Origin: Umbilicaria muhlenbergii | Taxonomy: Eukaryota; Ascomycota; Lecanoromycetes; Umbilicariales; Umbilicariaceae | DNA length: 64,000 bases | Assembly (NCBI GenBank): GCA_000611775.1 | Contig: KK106981.1 | Coordinates: forward strand, 6,780,312-6,844,311 | Direction: 5' to 3' | Shown: positions 30 through 57,739 of the stretch, one piece after another | Position numbering within the stretch: position 1 is the first letter of the stretch | Layout of the letters: every line of letters begins with the position of its first letter | Notes under the pieces: generated by a model | What the model saw: only the letters and a program-made list of their open reading frames with translations | Database searches by the model: none | What the model was told of the DNA's origin: nothing | Translations under genes and position numbers: made by a program

Positions 30-1776
30 TCATCCAGCCATATCCCTCGGCCTCCACGTCTCCTCTTGTCTCGTCCCCGGCGGCAACCACGCATTAGCCG
101 CACTATTCGTCCTCGGTCTCCCCAACCCCGCCGCGTCTTTCTTCTCATCCGCATAGCTCGATCCATCCACCCCGCCGAAGAGTTGCCCCGACGCGACGGC
201 GCTCTGGGGCGTCTCGACCATTGCGCTGGCACTGGAGGGATAGCGGCCGTGCTCAGCGTTGTTGGTGGTATCCAAGACAAGCGGTAATAGCGGGCTCTCA
301 TTCTTCAACTGATCAAGACGAGCTCTCCGATCCGCTTTTGCGGCATCGCTGGTGCGGTCGTAGAGATACAGACCGATGAACGTGAGGGCGATACCGGCGG
401 CTTGGACGGGGGTGGTGGTGTTTCCGAACCAGACGATTGCGGCCACGATGATGAAGACGCGTTTGATGAGCGAGGCGACGGAGTAGGTGACTGGCGAAAC
501 CATGGACAGGAGCACGAAAGCGATGATGTTTTGCCCGAAGTGGAAGATGCCGTTGAAAACGAACTCGACGGTTAGCCGGCCGTGGTCCAGCGCGTCGTGT
601 TTGTCGGCTAGATCGATGGAGCCGTCGTGCAGGAAGTCATTTAAGAGGGTGAACCCTTCGGACCAGAGCCAGATGGGGAAGGTGAGGAGGAAGGCGAGGC
701 CGGAGCAGTAGCAGAGAAGGTTGAGTTTGTCGAGGGTGCGGGAGCGGGATTGGTGGCCGTGCAGGCCGTCGGCTTCGGCGCGGGCGGCCTCGTTGAAGAG
801 TTTTTTGGAGAAGATGTTTTGAGTGACGAAGATGAGGGCGCCGCCGAAGGCGCAGAGGATGCCGAAGAAGTTACCGGAGAACTCGACCGAGCAAGCCAGG
901 ATGACGCCTAGGGTCAGAGGGATCAGGGAGAGGTATGTGGTGACTGGGTAGCGGATGTGGAAGATGAAACGGTATGCGAGGACGGTGAAGAGAGGGGAGA
1001 GGCCTTTGATGGTGTGGACGAGGGAGACGGGGATGACGGATGTGGCCGTTGCGGAGAGGATATGCCCGCCGATTTGGAAAAGCGCAAGAGGGAGAGTGGT
1101 GTTGATGACTTCGCGAGTGGGAGCGCGGATGCCATGTTTCAGCGCGGGTATAGCGGTCTTCAAGGACGGGTAGAGGTGGGCCAGATATGCGAATAAGACA
1201 CACCAAGTAGATACGAAAGCGAATTGGACGAGAGTAAGAGTGATTGGTTTGGGAAAGGCGTTTAGTATGGATTTCGACGATGTATTGGTGAGGGCTGAAC
1301 TCGTGTACCAAACAAGACAAAGAATCTACGCTTGTATATCAGCTATTGGTGTCGAAGGTGAAAGCCTGGTCTGACAGGAGAGCCCATACTACAAGCTTCA
1401 CCGACACAGGCGCTTTCAGCGCGTCTGCTATCTCGTGCGCATTGGCGCTGACGCTGCCCTTTCTCGTCCGTATTGTTCTGATAGCATCGCTGAGACTCTT
1501 CTGCCGACCATGTCTAGCCCACTGCCCATTGCTCCATGCAACATGATTTTCTCTTCGCGGCTGCCATCTCTCGCTGTGAAGAATGCCGTTTGCCTTTGGG
1601 GGAGCGTTCGGACTGGGCGTTCGCGCTGTGGTTCTTCCAGTCGGCCCTTCTTCCACATACACTGGTAGAAGGCTTCTGGGTGAAGGTGTGGCTTCGAAAT
1701 CAGGGAATTTGAAGTTCTCGGCGTGATTTGAAGATGTAGACCATCGGCGTTCACTGGTGGAGGTCATCGTCGACAT
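30..1776 (-). CDS. Sly41-like triose-phosphate-translocator family protein
   Basis: Two exons, 1776-1390 and 1325-30, join across a 64-nt GT-AG intron (1389-1326) to give 560 residues. The join is in frame and restores a continuous TPT-family core: a W-Y-T-S-S-A-L-T-N-T segment, then alternating hydrophobic helices through about residue 420, including the family's typical lysine-bearing loops (LIKRVF). The N-terminal ~115 residues are polar and low-complexity, and the C-terminal ~130 are hydrophilic. Both are common in fungal Sly41 homologues, which sit in Golgi/ER membranes and are related to plastid triose-phosphate translocators. The substrate is not inferable. The start is the first ATG of the upstream open exon; an ATG at 1754 lies in another frame and is not used. 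The left third of the locus is C-rich on the + strand and the rest G-rich. Confidence 0.88.
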
Positions 1777-2507
1777 GCTTGTAGGGCCCTACCGAGGGGA
1801 CAGCAGCTGACTTCCCATAAACAAGCTAGCCTCTTCAAGTACATGATGCGAAAGCGTATTATTGCAGCATTGTAAGATCTAGGGGTGGCGATTGTCGTAA
1901 GATGGGTACGTGCGGCTCAGCGAGCGGCTCGGTCACAAAGGCTCATGGCAGGATGATGTAGGATGTTCGGACGGTAATGCGGCAAAGATTCCCAAAGAGT
2001 ACGGTATATGGTACTGCTGAGATCAGGACTTCCGTCCGAGATTCTTGTAGATTTCCCCTTTCAACGTCAAACGTAATCATCGTCTCCTCTGCGACATTGC
2101 ACTGCAGGGCCGCATCAAGTTAGCTTCAACGCCGCTTGTTTAGCGAGCACATCTCCACGAGAAACGATGTACCGGTGCCCTGAACCATTCCGTGACTGAA
2201 AGATGCCCACTATTCACCCCATAGGGAACCCTCAAAAGCCCAGCGCCGGAATGCTGAATAACTGAGCTCGATGGATTCGTCATTCGTGGTTGTGTGGTTG
2301 CTGTTGCGCGTATTTGCCTATTTCAAGGTTCTTTGGGGTGAGTGTGCCACTTCTTTCGTCCTCGGCCCCTCAGTCTAGATGATCCGCGGCTGCGGCTCGC
2401 GGCGGCTAAAGTTAATCAAGACATCACGGCTTTTCGCAGGCTTCACCCCTTTCAATCCACCGTGAAGGGCGTCATGAAAGCATTTACGTCAATGATGTAT
2501 ATCTACA
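1777..2507. other. intergenic region
   Basis: Divergent spacer between the transporter gene (-) and the secreted hydrolase gene (+), so it must hold both promoters. I see no coding potential that survives comparison of frames and no clear repeat. Confidence 0.5.
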
Positions 2508-55805: not shown

Positions 55806-56406
55806 GTTGGTCGATGATGAAGGTAGCCGACTTAGAAACGGTGTGGAGAGTTCTCGGTGGAATTTGGGAGTTTATCGGTGGCTGGTGATGATAGCAAGTG
55901 ACGGTGGAGAGAGAGGTTTGAGGTACGATTAGGCAACGCCCCGCGATGAGTAACCGCCGCAATGAATTAGCGCGCTCTGGCAGGCGAGCGGTGGATGCCA
56001 CAACTCGAGTGGCTTCGGACTCTGGTAGAAAGGACGAGATGCAGATGACCGTCACAAGGCACTGTCAGAGACAACACGCAGCAGTGTGACACACAAAGGC
56101 GCAAGATCTTTGTCTTGGACGCCGAAGGTCAGCTCTTCCGTGCTGACTGCCTGCGTCATGTGCTCCCCTACGGGAGCCCGGATCGTGACGCGCCATTCTC
56201 GGTCTTTCGGCGGTACTTTGTTCCTCCATGACGATCAATGACCTGCACATCTTGACTGCATCGAATTCAGCATTCAGGATTCTCGGACGCCCTTTGAAGG
56301 GAGACAATCTGATCAAAGGAACTCATACTGTCATTACCGCGTGTATACAGAACGGAATGGCCGTTCAGTAGCGTCTGCCTGCAACCCTAGCAAAGAGCGT
56401 GCAACA
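55806..56406. promoter_or_regulatory. divergent ATG8/HEM13 promoter region
   Basis: 601 bases between two divergent starts. No specific element is claimed. Confidence 0.5.
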
Positions 56407-57739
56407 ATGGCATCACCAAAGGCCTGCATTCGATGGGGTGAGTCTTCAGCCATTCGAGGGTTGTGTCGGGCTCAGCCACCCGCGCTCGGCCATATCCACC
56501 ATATCCGCTTCCTCGCAACCGGTAAAAGAGCACTACGAGACCCAGCTCCAGTAGCAAAACCCAGCAGCGCTCCGAGAAACCAGGCCAATGTCGTGTGGGC
56601 GCCCTACCTACGCATCTCCGTCGGCATCGTCTTTTGCGGTTCTATTATTTACTCCATGGTATACCTTCTCCAACCCTACCCGGCAACCTCCAACTGACTC
56701 ACACGCATGCCAGCTCACCTCTCCCGTCGAACGAGCCGAAGGCCCCACCATCGCCGAAAGAGACACCCTCGCCAAGCGCGAATCCGGCATAACCCCCAGC
56801 TCACCCATGCGCCTCCGCATGGAAGGCTTCATAAAAGAGCAACAGTCCGTTATCGTGCAAGCGCTCGGAAAACTCGACGGATCAAAATTCCGCACCGACA
56901 CCTGGAGCCGCCCCACCGGCGGCAGCGGCATATCCTGCGTCCTACAAGACGGACACGTCTTCGAAAAAGCCGGCGTCAACACCTCCATCGTCTACGGCAC
57001 CCTCCCACGCCCGGCAATCGAAAAAATGCGCGTCAACCACAAAGCGTTGGACCCAGACGTTGAATCTCTCGAATTCTTCGCCGCAGGTCTGAGCATGGTC
57101 TTACACCCACACAACCCCATGGCGCCGACCGTCCACCTCAACTACCGGTATTTCGAAACGGTCGACCCCAACGACAAAGACAAAAGCAACGCGTGGTGGT
57201 TCGGCGGCGGCACGGACTTGACGCCCAGCTACCTCTTCGACGAAGACGCCATCCACTTCCACCGCACCATCAAAGACGCCTGCGACAAGCACGACCGCGC
57301 ATACTACCCGCGCTTCAAGAAATGGTGCGACGACTACTTCAACGTCAAGCACCGCAACGAGACGCGCGGCGTCGGGGGCATCTTCTTCGACGACCTGGAC
57401 GAAGAGGAAAAAGACCAGCAACAACTCTTCTCCTTCGTGCAGGACTGCCTGTGTGCGTTCCTGCCGTCTTATCTGCCCATCGTGCAGAAGCGGAAGGATA
57501 TGCCATTCGGAGAGAAGGAGAAGGAATGGCAGCAGGTCAGGCGGGGTCGCTATGTCGAGTTTAATCTCGTGCATGATCGCGGGACGAGCTTCGGGTTGAA
57601 TACGCCGGGGGCAAGGGTGGAGAGTATTTTGATGAGTTTGCCGTTGACGGCGAGGTGGATGTATATGCATGAGCCGGAAAAGGGGAGTCGGGAGGAACGG
57701 TTGGTGAATGTGTTGAAGCAGCCGGTGGATTGGGTCTGA
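56407..57739 (+). CDS. HEM13: coproporphyrinogen III oxidase, aerobic
   Basis: Two exons, 56407-56658 and 56714-57739, give 425 residues across a 55-nt GT-AG intron. Residues 1-~60 are basic and look like a mitochondrial presequence. A hydrophobic helix at ~63-85 (I-S-V-G-I-V-F-C-G-S-I-I-Y-S-M) spans the splice. The enzyme core has G-G-S-G-I-S-C-V-L-Q-D-G, H-L-N-Y-R-Y-F-E, W-W-F-G-G-G-T-D-L-T-P, R-G-V-G-G-I-F-F-D-D and G-R-Y-V-E-F-N-L. It oxidatively decarboxylates coproporphyrinogen III to protoporphyrinogen IX in heme synthesis. Codons end mostly in C to about 57480, then mostly in G. An in-frame ATG at 56341 is less likely to be the start. Confidence 0.97.

Follow-up and report, generated by a model that had tools for sequence, protein, structure and literature searches.

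Abrupt, point-centred C-to-G strand-composition switches in the 3′ parts of genes of Umbilicaria muhlenbergii

Introduction

In a 64 kb stretch of the Umbilicaria muhlenbergii genome (contig KK106981.1, positions 6,780,312 to 6,844,311; hereafter the window, with coordinates counted from its first base) the + strand appears to change abruptly from C-rich to G-rich at several points centred on genes. Are these switches real, and what kind of process could write a two-sided change of strand composition around a point inside a gene? We examined the window together with 280 kb from the same genome, giving a sample of 344 kb out of 34.8 Mb. The additional sequence was chosen at round coordinates in contigs C1 to C5 (C6 and C7 were left out) and is therefore non-random. 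Skewed arms and the junctions between them were called by three-state segmentation of strand composition, and gene models were ORFs of at least 200 aa, taken longest first and ignoring introns.

Results

Frequency of the switches

The C-to-G switches were confirmed as real. Segmentation of the 344 kb gave 28 abrupt C-to-G junctions vs 12 G-to-C junctions. By step size there were 24 C-to-G and 5 G-to-C steps at |z| ≥ 7 with |skew| ≥ 0.3 on both sides (binomial P = 0.0005), 17 and 3 at |z| ≥ 9 (P = 0.0026) and 7 and 0 at |z| ≥ 12 (P = 0.016). Against this, the most permissive cut-off (|z| ≥ 5 without a skew filter) gave equal counts, 48 vs 46, because the outer edges of the same dipoles are then counted too. 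In the gene-bearing 234 kb (~52% GC) we found 93 skewed segments, vs 0 in five dinucleotide-shuffled copies, which rejects chance as their source. Skewed arms cover ~17% of this sequence (38,994 of 234,000 bases), and its 27 junctions correspond to ~1 per 9 kb, with no clustering of dipoles in 10-kb bins (variance/mean 0.95). The AT-rich DNA (110 kb) was considered as a non-recombining control and was uninformative, as it contained one junction but just 5 ORFs of 200 aa or more.

Dipoles in the window

The original prediction listed eight C-to-G loci, of which six are abrupt junctions. The dipole with its switch at 13910 (C arm 13564-13910, G arm 13911-14972) lies inside a − strand ORF without a Pfam family (13639-14391). 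It also contains the only run of Ns in the window (14174-14177); both N runs seen in the sample (2/2) were inside skewed arms. The switch at 18914 (dipole 18319-19476) is in the WLM gene (+ strand ORF 18360-19418; Pfam WLM, 1.5e−49), that at 20243 (19820-20742) in a − strand ORF without a Pfam family (20013-20762), that at 21752 (21248-22468) in a − strand BTB-domain ORF (Pfam BTB, 1.5e−4, above its cut-off) and that at 28396 (27947-28939) in a further − strand ORF without a Pfam family (28065-29282). The sixth, at 54474 (54139-54815), is in a small two-exon NCE101-like gene on the + strand (54188-54593; Pfam NCE101, 1.3e−10) and is isolated, the nearest arm being more than 2.6 kb away on both sides.

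The other two listed loci are incomplete. Near 250-350, a C arm (1-176) and a G arm (351-1294) are separated by a 174-bp neutral gap in a − strand ORF of the triose-phosphate transporter family, which is truncated by the window edge (feature 1-1294; Pfam TPT, 2.5e−59). Near 57490, the 3′ end of HEM13 (+ strand ORF 56588-57739; Pfam Coprogen_oxidas, 1.6e−141) has a clear G arm (57482-57922) and a weak C side (−0.24). Two C-to-G junctions were missing from the list: one at 9990, where a C arm (9626-9990) meets a G arm (9991-10281) and a − strand PEX14-like KPWE-domain gene has its 3′ end (stop near 9934; Pfam KPWE_dom, 6.4e−21), and one at 34471 (33953-34896), without a convincing gene, between ORF 33291-33911 (strand taken as +) and the − strand ORF 34952-39094, which carries PKS domains (Pfam). 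The 3′ end of an FDF-domain (Lsm14/Scd6-like) gene has a G arm (12850-13563; Pfam FDF, 5e−19) without a clear C arm (−0.17). Segmentation also placed four G-to-C junctions in the window (13563, 28939, 33952 and 57922); the claim that no G-to-C switch is equally sharp is correct for the strongest steps (best z = −8.5, at 13563, vs +13.0 for C-to-G) and does not extend to an absence of such junctions.

Base composition

The unit of the pattern is a dipole of ~1 kb, in which skew peaks within ~225 bp of the switch and decays over 500-900 bp. The same + strand polarity was found in genes of both strands, so the pattern is palindromic and, as had been proposed, punctate, its own reverse complement and not explained by gene-strand skew. 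Right of the centre the + strand is keto-rich (G, T) and left of it amino-rich (C, A). Four-fold codon third positions reach ~88% G+C within 75 bp of the switch, vs ~50% in cold genes (selected for small steps, as hot genes were for large ones), and this GC peak fades outward. Base context had no strong influence at four-fold sites, and no sequence motif was evident at the switch when the 28 junction sequences were inspected by eye.

Two-fold codons separate the two sides. Just left of the switch, C made up 98% of pyrimidine-ending codons (n = 140) and G merely 21% of purine-ending codons (n = 61); 150-300 bp right of it the values were 22% (n = 138) and 85% (n = 96), and in cold genes 54% and 58%. 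Purine codons to the left shift to A (G in 47/197) and pyrimidine codons to the right shift to T (C in 90/325), with agreement in 16/16 genes. These are opposite transition biases on the + strand (T-to-C and G-to-A left, A-to-G and C-to-T right), deduced from base frequencies at equilibrium and not from mutations seen directly; transversions toward G or C are also present. Such opposite shifts on top of a central GC peak make classical GC-biased gene conversion insufficient, and we rejected it as the whole story.

Selection on codons, protein or mRNA, or chance, is a very improbable cause. Amino-acid content does shift as well, with P, S and T raised in C arms and G, E, V and R in G arms. However, third-position skew exceeded all 200 synonymous shuffles in 14/14 hot genes and in 0/11 cold genes, counts biased by the choice of both sets by skew; the strong third-position switch originally described thus holds, and codon order was rejected as its source. 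Skew is also present in the apparently non-genic dipole at 34471 and in the intron of the NCE101-like gene (54229-54412, + strand), which lies within the C arm and whose 184 bp comprise 101 C, 55 T, 20 A and 8 G. As this intron is strongly C-rich, codon choice is not the cause, and selection on codons or protein was rejected.

Position relative to genes

A new observation is that, whichever strand a gene is on, the switch falls in its 3′ part; over 20 sites the median distance upstream of the stop was 271 bp. Across 89 ORFs, sense-strand skew was −0.17 at 650 bp before the stop, zero near −270 and +0.27 at −100; a step above 0.5 was found at 21/88 ORF ends and a step below −0.5 at 0/88. In this respect the original interpretation was wrong or incomplete, for the pattern is not independent of genes: it is anchored near gene 3′ ends, and being its own reverse complement is still compatible with a gene-linked cause.

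One such cause would be transcription: cryptic starts in both directions, or R-loops, within the 3′ parts of genes would expose the non-template strand to either side. Beyond the tie to 3′ ends on both strands, the 3′ edge of the dipoles lies at a median of ~100 bp beyond the stop, near the likely transcript end, and G-quadruplex motifs are enriched in arms (277 starts in 39.0 kb, vs 12 in 195.0 kb of neutral sequence), which may result from the composition or give rise to it. We nevertheless consider this unlikely, as 5 of the 28 dipoles have no assigned gene and that at 34471 no convincing one, long genes such as the PKS show no effect, and deamination alone predicts no central GC peak. In addition, the 3′ arm does not follow stop distance one-to-one: with n = 22 and two stops uncertain, arm length against distance to the stop had a slope of 0.23 ± 0.17, which differs from 1 (t = −4.4). 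A 3′ arm fixed to where the transcript ends is disfavoured by this slope, although the strong 3′ bias of the switches points the other way.

Extent and order of the arms

Replication initiation, one of the processes originally suggested, would open a bubble at the switch and leave the lagging-strand template (top strand right, bottom strand left) single-stranded and deaminated. Keto-rich sequence is the usual sign of the leading strand, so the polarity is right; the pattern is centred on a point, and the upward C-to-G jump prevails (28 vs 12 G-to-C junctions). Sustained replichore skew is lacking, however: at distances of 0.6-5 kb, left or right, mean skew deviates from 0 by no more than 2 standard errors, leaving plain fork asymmetry unsupported. 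Neighbouring switches are sometimes only ~0.9-1.5 kb apart (18914/20243/21752, 34829/35817 and 8188/9064), which is close for origins, the centres lie within genes near the 3′ end, and the central GC peak is not predicted. We regard replication initiation as an improbable source of the dipoles.

Alternatively, breaks in the gaps flanking genes could be resected inward from both ends, making the switch a mere meeting point. This would match the polarity at human break flanks, as we interpret it; dipole edges are frequently near gene ends, and six C-G pairs are separated by a neutral gap of less than 800 bp, for example in the P5C reductase gene. However, the bias is maximal at the switch and weaker toward gene ends, and a hot gap should mark both its sides, yet a C arm comes next after just 18 of 46 G arms, vs 33 of the 42 C arms with a next arm that have a G arm within 800 bp. 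The arm-strength correlations, neither of which was significant, were uninformative for this model. On the strength profile and the order of the arms, inward resection is disfavoured, and we think it quite unlikely.

Discussion

Most likely, the switch is the scar of a recurrent DNA process acting at fixed spots and damaging or repairing the two strands differently. The effect is maximal beside the switch and fades outward, which is consistent with the originally proposed process that starts at a point and extends in both directions, and overall that interpretation is partly supported. The explanation we favour, tentatively and at somewhat less than even probability, is that a stable recombination hotspot, centred at or near the switch and mostly within the 3′ part of a gene, has left each dipole as its evolutionary footprint. 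Breaks would recur at the switch and their repair would be strand-asymmetric. D-loop extension from each broken end could displace the donor top strand rightward and bottom strand leftward, after which the displaced single strand would be deaminated and then bypassed. Alternatively, heteroduplex correction might follow the donor more often where the invading strand carries G or T than where it carries A or C, which would amount to biased gene conversion that depends on the strand. Either route would yield the observed polarity.

In favour of hotspots, the effect is greatest at the switch and decays outward, four-fold sites and two-fold codons behave as described, and the central GC peak fades over a conversion-tract length. 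The weak dependence of 3′ arm length on stop distance is as expected of a centre-driven process. The genome carries a SPO11-like domain, six MutS matches and a MAT alpha box, and one junction per ~9 kb is a reasonable density for break hotspots. Against this, yeast breaks prefer promoter gaps, and the dipole centres lie in coding 3′ parts, unlike those gaps or the intergenic maximum in Zymoseptoria. T exceeds A in the C-arm intron (the one intron tested), unlike at coding sites, and arm strengths within a dipole were not significantly correlated (rho = 0.25, P = 0.20, n = 28). The human polarity, as we interpret it, is also the reverse of that here if breaks are placed at the switch: C>N and A>N fall on the strand resected from the centre, whereas here composition points to the bottom strand left and the top strand right. 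Simple 5′-to-3′ resection from the switch would thus expose the wrong strand, and plain resection damage fails as the cause.

More tentatively still, intragenic hotspots may write this two-sided, strand-specific signature by a new strand-dependent gene conversion or D-loop mutagenesis, in which case break positions, polarity and tract lengths could be read from one haploid genome, and C-terminal parts of proteins would be reshaped. Were recombination responsible, breaks could be mapped from base composition alone in fungi that cannot be crossed, and a strand rule in meiotic repair would come to light; were it replication or transcription, the switches would mark initiation sites inside genes at base-pair precision. 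Whatever the cause, arms over ~17% of gene-bearing sequence will bias codon statistics, protein evolution rates, sequencing and also gene prediction, since both strands stay open in arms.

Comparison with known systems

Our literature search found no account of such dipoles in fungal nuclear genes, which is weak evidence of absence because subscription journals were mostly outside its scope. In vertebrate mitochondrial DNA, single-strand deamination causes A-to-G and C-to-T changes on one strand, so that G exceeds C and T exceeds A there. Composition points to the same two changes on one strand here, but the mitochondrial asymmetry is a whole-genome gradient and not a series of ~1 kb dipoles with added transversions toward G or C. 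Human genes have R-loop-linked GC skew at their 5′ and 3′ ends, likewise tied to gene ends, but one-sided, whereas the dipole is two-sided and within coding sequence.

Human replication origins also show skew jumps, and origin skew extends over many kilobases, whereas dipole skew ends within about 0.5-0.9 kb. The upward C-to-G jump itself is shared with eukaryotic origins, GC-skew jumps being described for yeast in the accessible text of one report (PMC3459929).

GC-biased gene conversion at hotspots has led to runaway GC in gerbils, according to the available parts of two papers (PMC7403616; PMC6573468), and resembles the dipoles in a local GC rise able to alter proteins. It is not expected to prefer A over G or T over C, as dipole two-fold codons do according to side. 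Zymoseptoria is also a fungus, and hotspots in coding sequence and high coding recombination are reported for it, which speaks for the hotspot reading, although rates are highest in intergenic sequence and GC-biased conversion is very weak or absent (Stukenbrock and Dutheil 2017; PMC5844332); in the accessible portion of that account we found no strand-composition footprint, unlike the dipoles here.

A close parallel comes from Hinch et al. 2023 (PMC7615360), who describe strand-asymmetric mutation flanking human meiotic break hotspots. Like the dipoles, these flanks are point-centred and palindromic, span 1-2 kb, have opposite biases on the two sides and involve the C>N and A>N classes. Their polarity is opposite if the break is the switch, and the human signal consists of rare variants around PRDM9 sites, whereas in U. 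muhlenbergii the composition itself is near-saturated.

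Results

We analysed the window (G000:C1:6780312-6844311) together with 280 kb sampled from contigs C1–C5, giving 344 kb of the 34.79 Mb, seven-contig assembly: 234 kb at 51–55% GC and 110 kb of AT-rich sequence at 37–38% GC. Gene content, including a PKS ORF and a match to the MAT alpha box, suggests a filamentous ascomycete. Skew steps were scored as z by comparing 300 bp with the adjoining 300 bp, and junctions were called across all 344 kb by three-state segmentation. The abrupt C-to-G switches of the original prediction proved to be real: the 344 kb held 28 direct C-to-G junctions, and 93 skewed segments were found in the 234 kb part vs 0 across five dinucleotide shuffles of it. 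Steps in the window were as large as z = 13.0 (at both 13910 and 20243) and 12.3 (at 54460). The strength claimed for third codon positions was also borne out, with 14/14 genes chosen for large skew steps exceeding all of their 200 synonymous shuffles, compared with 0/11 genes chosen for small steps.

The further claim, that no locus switches from G to C as sharply, held at strict thresholds, with C-to-G vs G-to-C counts over 344 kb of 7 vs 0 at |z| ≥ 12, 17 vs 3 at |z| ≥ 9 and 24 vs 5 at |z| ≥ 7 with |skew| ≥ 0.3 on both sides, but not at |z| ≥ 5 with the skew filter off, where numbers were nearly equal (48 vs 46). Two of the three G-to-C steps at |z| ≥ 9 (near 35281 and 8696) sit between two C-to-G switches. 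Segmentation gave 12 direct G-to-C junctions; by our reading, 7 have an arm in common with a C-to-G junction, 3 lie next to a C-gap-G pair and 2 are of neither kind (57922 in the window and 38534 in piece C2a). Some genes have a C arm 5', a neutral middle and a G arm 3' with no direct junction, for example P5C reductase on the + strand; C-gap-G examples from segmentation and Pfam include L016:35-982 and C3a 46893-48455 (L021:6894-8455).

On the + strand, the left arm of each dipole is C-rich and the right arm G-rich, irrespective of gene strand. Averaged over the 28 junctions, skew rose from -0.55 on the left to +0.55 on the right, within ~200 bp each side of the switch, and was back near zero by 500–600 bp; GC was 61% at the junction vs ~52% outside. 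Using approximate gene models, 23/28 junctions were given a gene or ORF, 8 on the + and 15 on the - strand. Fifteen of these 23 matched Pfam families (KPWE, WLM, BTB, NCE101, GFO_IDH_MocA, UCH, M48, ZIP, HAT1_C_fung, neurochondrin, DUF1746, RPAB4, ATP10, V-SNARE and, slightly under its cut-off, zf-C2H2) and the other 8 were supported by an ORF alone. The five without an assigned gene were 34471 in the window, 3522 and 4605 in C2a, 39852 in C3a and 14908 in C4a. HEM13 and a TPT-family gene show the same pattern, though without a direct junction.

Positional statistics also used the approximate gene models. On the sense strand (20 sites), median arm lengths were 662 bp (5') and 417 bp (3'), the stop lay a median 271 bp downstream of the switch (range 173–597) and the 3' arm edge a median ~100 bp beyond the stop (range -262 to +516). 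Mean sense skew relative to the stop (89 ORFs) was -0.17 at -650, zero near -270, +0.27 at -100 and ~0 at +150. The step was positive at 66/88 ORF ends, above 0.5 at 21/88 and below -0.5 at 0/88.

Coding selection was rejected as the cause because of a skewed intron and a dipole without a convincing gene. The 184-bp intron, within the C arm of the switch at 54474 in the NCE101-like gene, contains 101 C, 55 T, 20 A and 8 G, its excess of T over A being the reverse of that at coding sites; the dipole at 34471 sits between two ORFs. That selection or chance lies behind the dipoles is scarcely credible.

Four-fold site composition was A.235, C.295, G.202, T.268 in the small-step genes (n = 3473), A.125, C.693, G.111, T.072 in the C arm (n = 1058) and A.070, C.118, G.668, T.144 in the G arm (n = 626). 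The favoured base peaked at.77–.78 at 150–225 bp from the switch, declining to about.4 by 400–600 bp on the 3' side and.21 by 825–900 bp on the 5' side. Two-fold codons, which read out transitions only, had C among C/T at 98% (n = 140) and G among A/G at 21% (n = 61) 50–150 bp to the left, and 22% (n = 138) and 85% (n = 96) respectively 150–300 bp to the right, vs 54% and 58% in the small-step genes; both counter-GC shifts were present in 16/16 genes. From this side-dependent composition, one strand (bottom on the left, top on the right) looks enriched in A-to-G and C-to-T changes and in G gain.

In the 234 kb sample, the dipole arms (39.0 kb) contained 277 G-quadruplex motif starts and the neutral remainder (195.0 kb) contained 12. 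The 344 kb have two N runs, each inside an arm (window 14174-14177; L019:8889-8943), suggesting that arms pose difficulties for sequencing or assembly. The AT-rich blocks, L002-L011 (G000:C1:1000001-1100000, 38% GC) and L029 (G000:C2:5000001-5010000, 37% GC), have CpG observed/expected of 0.37 and 0.11 and elevated TpG+CpA, but TpA/ApT of merely 0.62 and 0.53, and so do not resemble the product of classical CpA-targeted RIP; they are more like the result of CpG-directed C-to-T loss.

Discussion

The bias being maximal beside the switch, the central GC peak and a 3' arm length nearly independent of stop position (slope 0.23 ± 0.17, n = 22) point to a process that starts at the switch. A replication bubble initiated there would give the observed polarity; the absence of skew at 0.6–5 kb counts against fork asymmetry, and we consider replication initiation unlikely. 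Divergent transcription would also produce this polarity, and we consider transcription a doubtful source. The central GC peak speaks for recombination, and the reading we tentatively favour is that recombination initiated at the switch leaves the dipole. In D-loop extension the displaced donor strand would be the top one to the right of the switch and the bottom one to the left, giving the observed polarity; heteroduplex correction would do likewise if it removed G and T from the invading strand while sparing A and C. Profile matches in the genome, which indicate presence only, comprised SPO11-type (1), MutS (6), UDG (2), MAT alpha (1) and Y-family polymerase (5, perhaps 4 genes).

A break at the switch with 5'-to-3' resection would expose the top strand on the left and the bottom strand on the right. 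The human data of PMC7615360, as interpreted here, place C>N and A>N changes on the resection-exposed strand, and such changes would yield a polarity opposite to that observed. Inward resection from breaks flanking the genes is quite improbable. The location of the switches towards gene 3' ends fits none of these mechanisms cleanly, although hotspots within coding sequences are reported in Zymoseptoria (PMC5844332).
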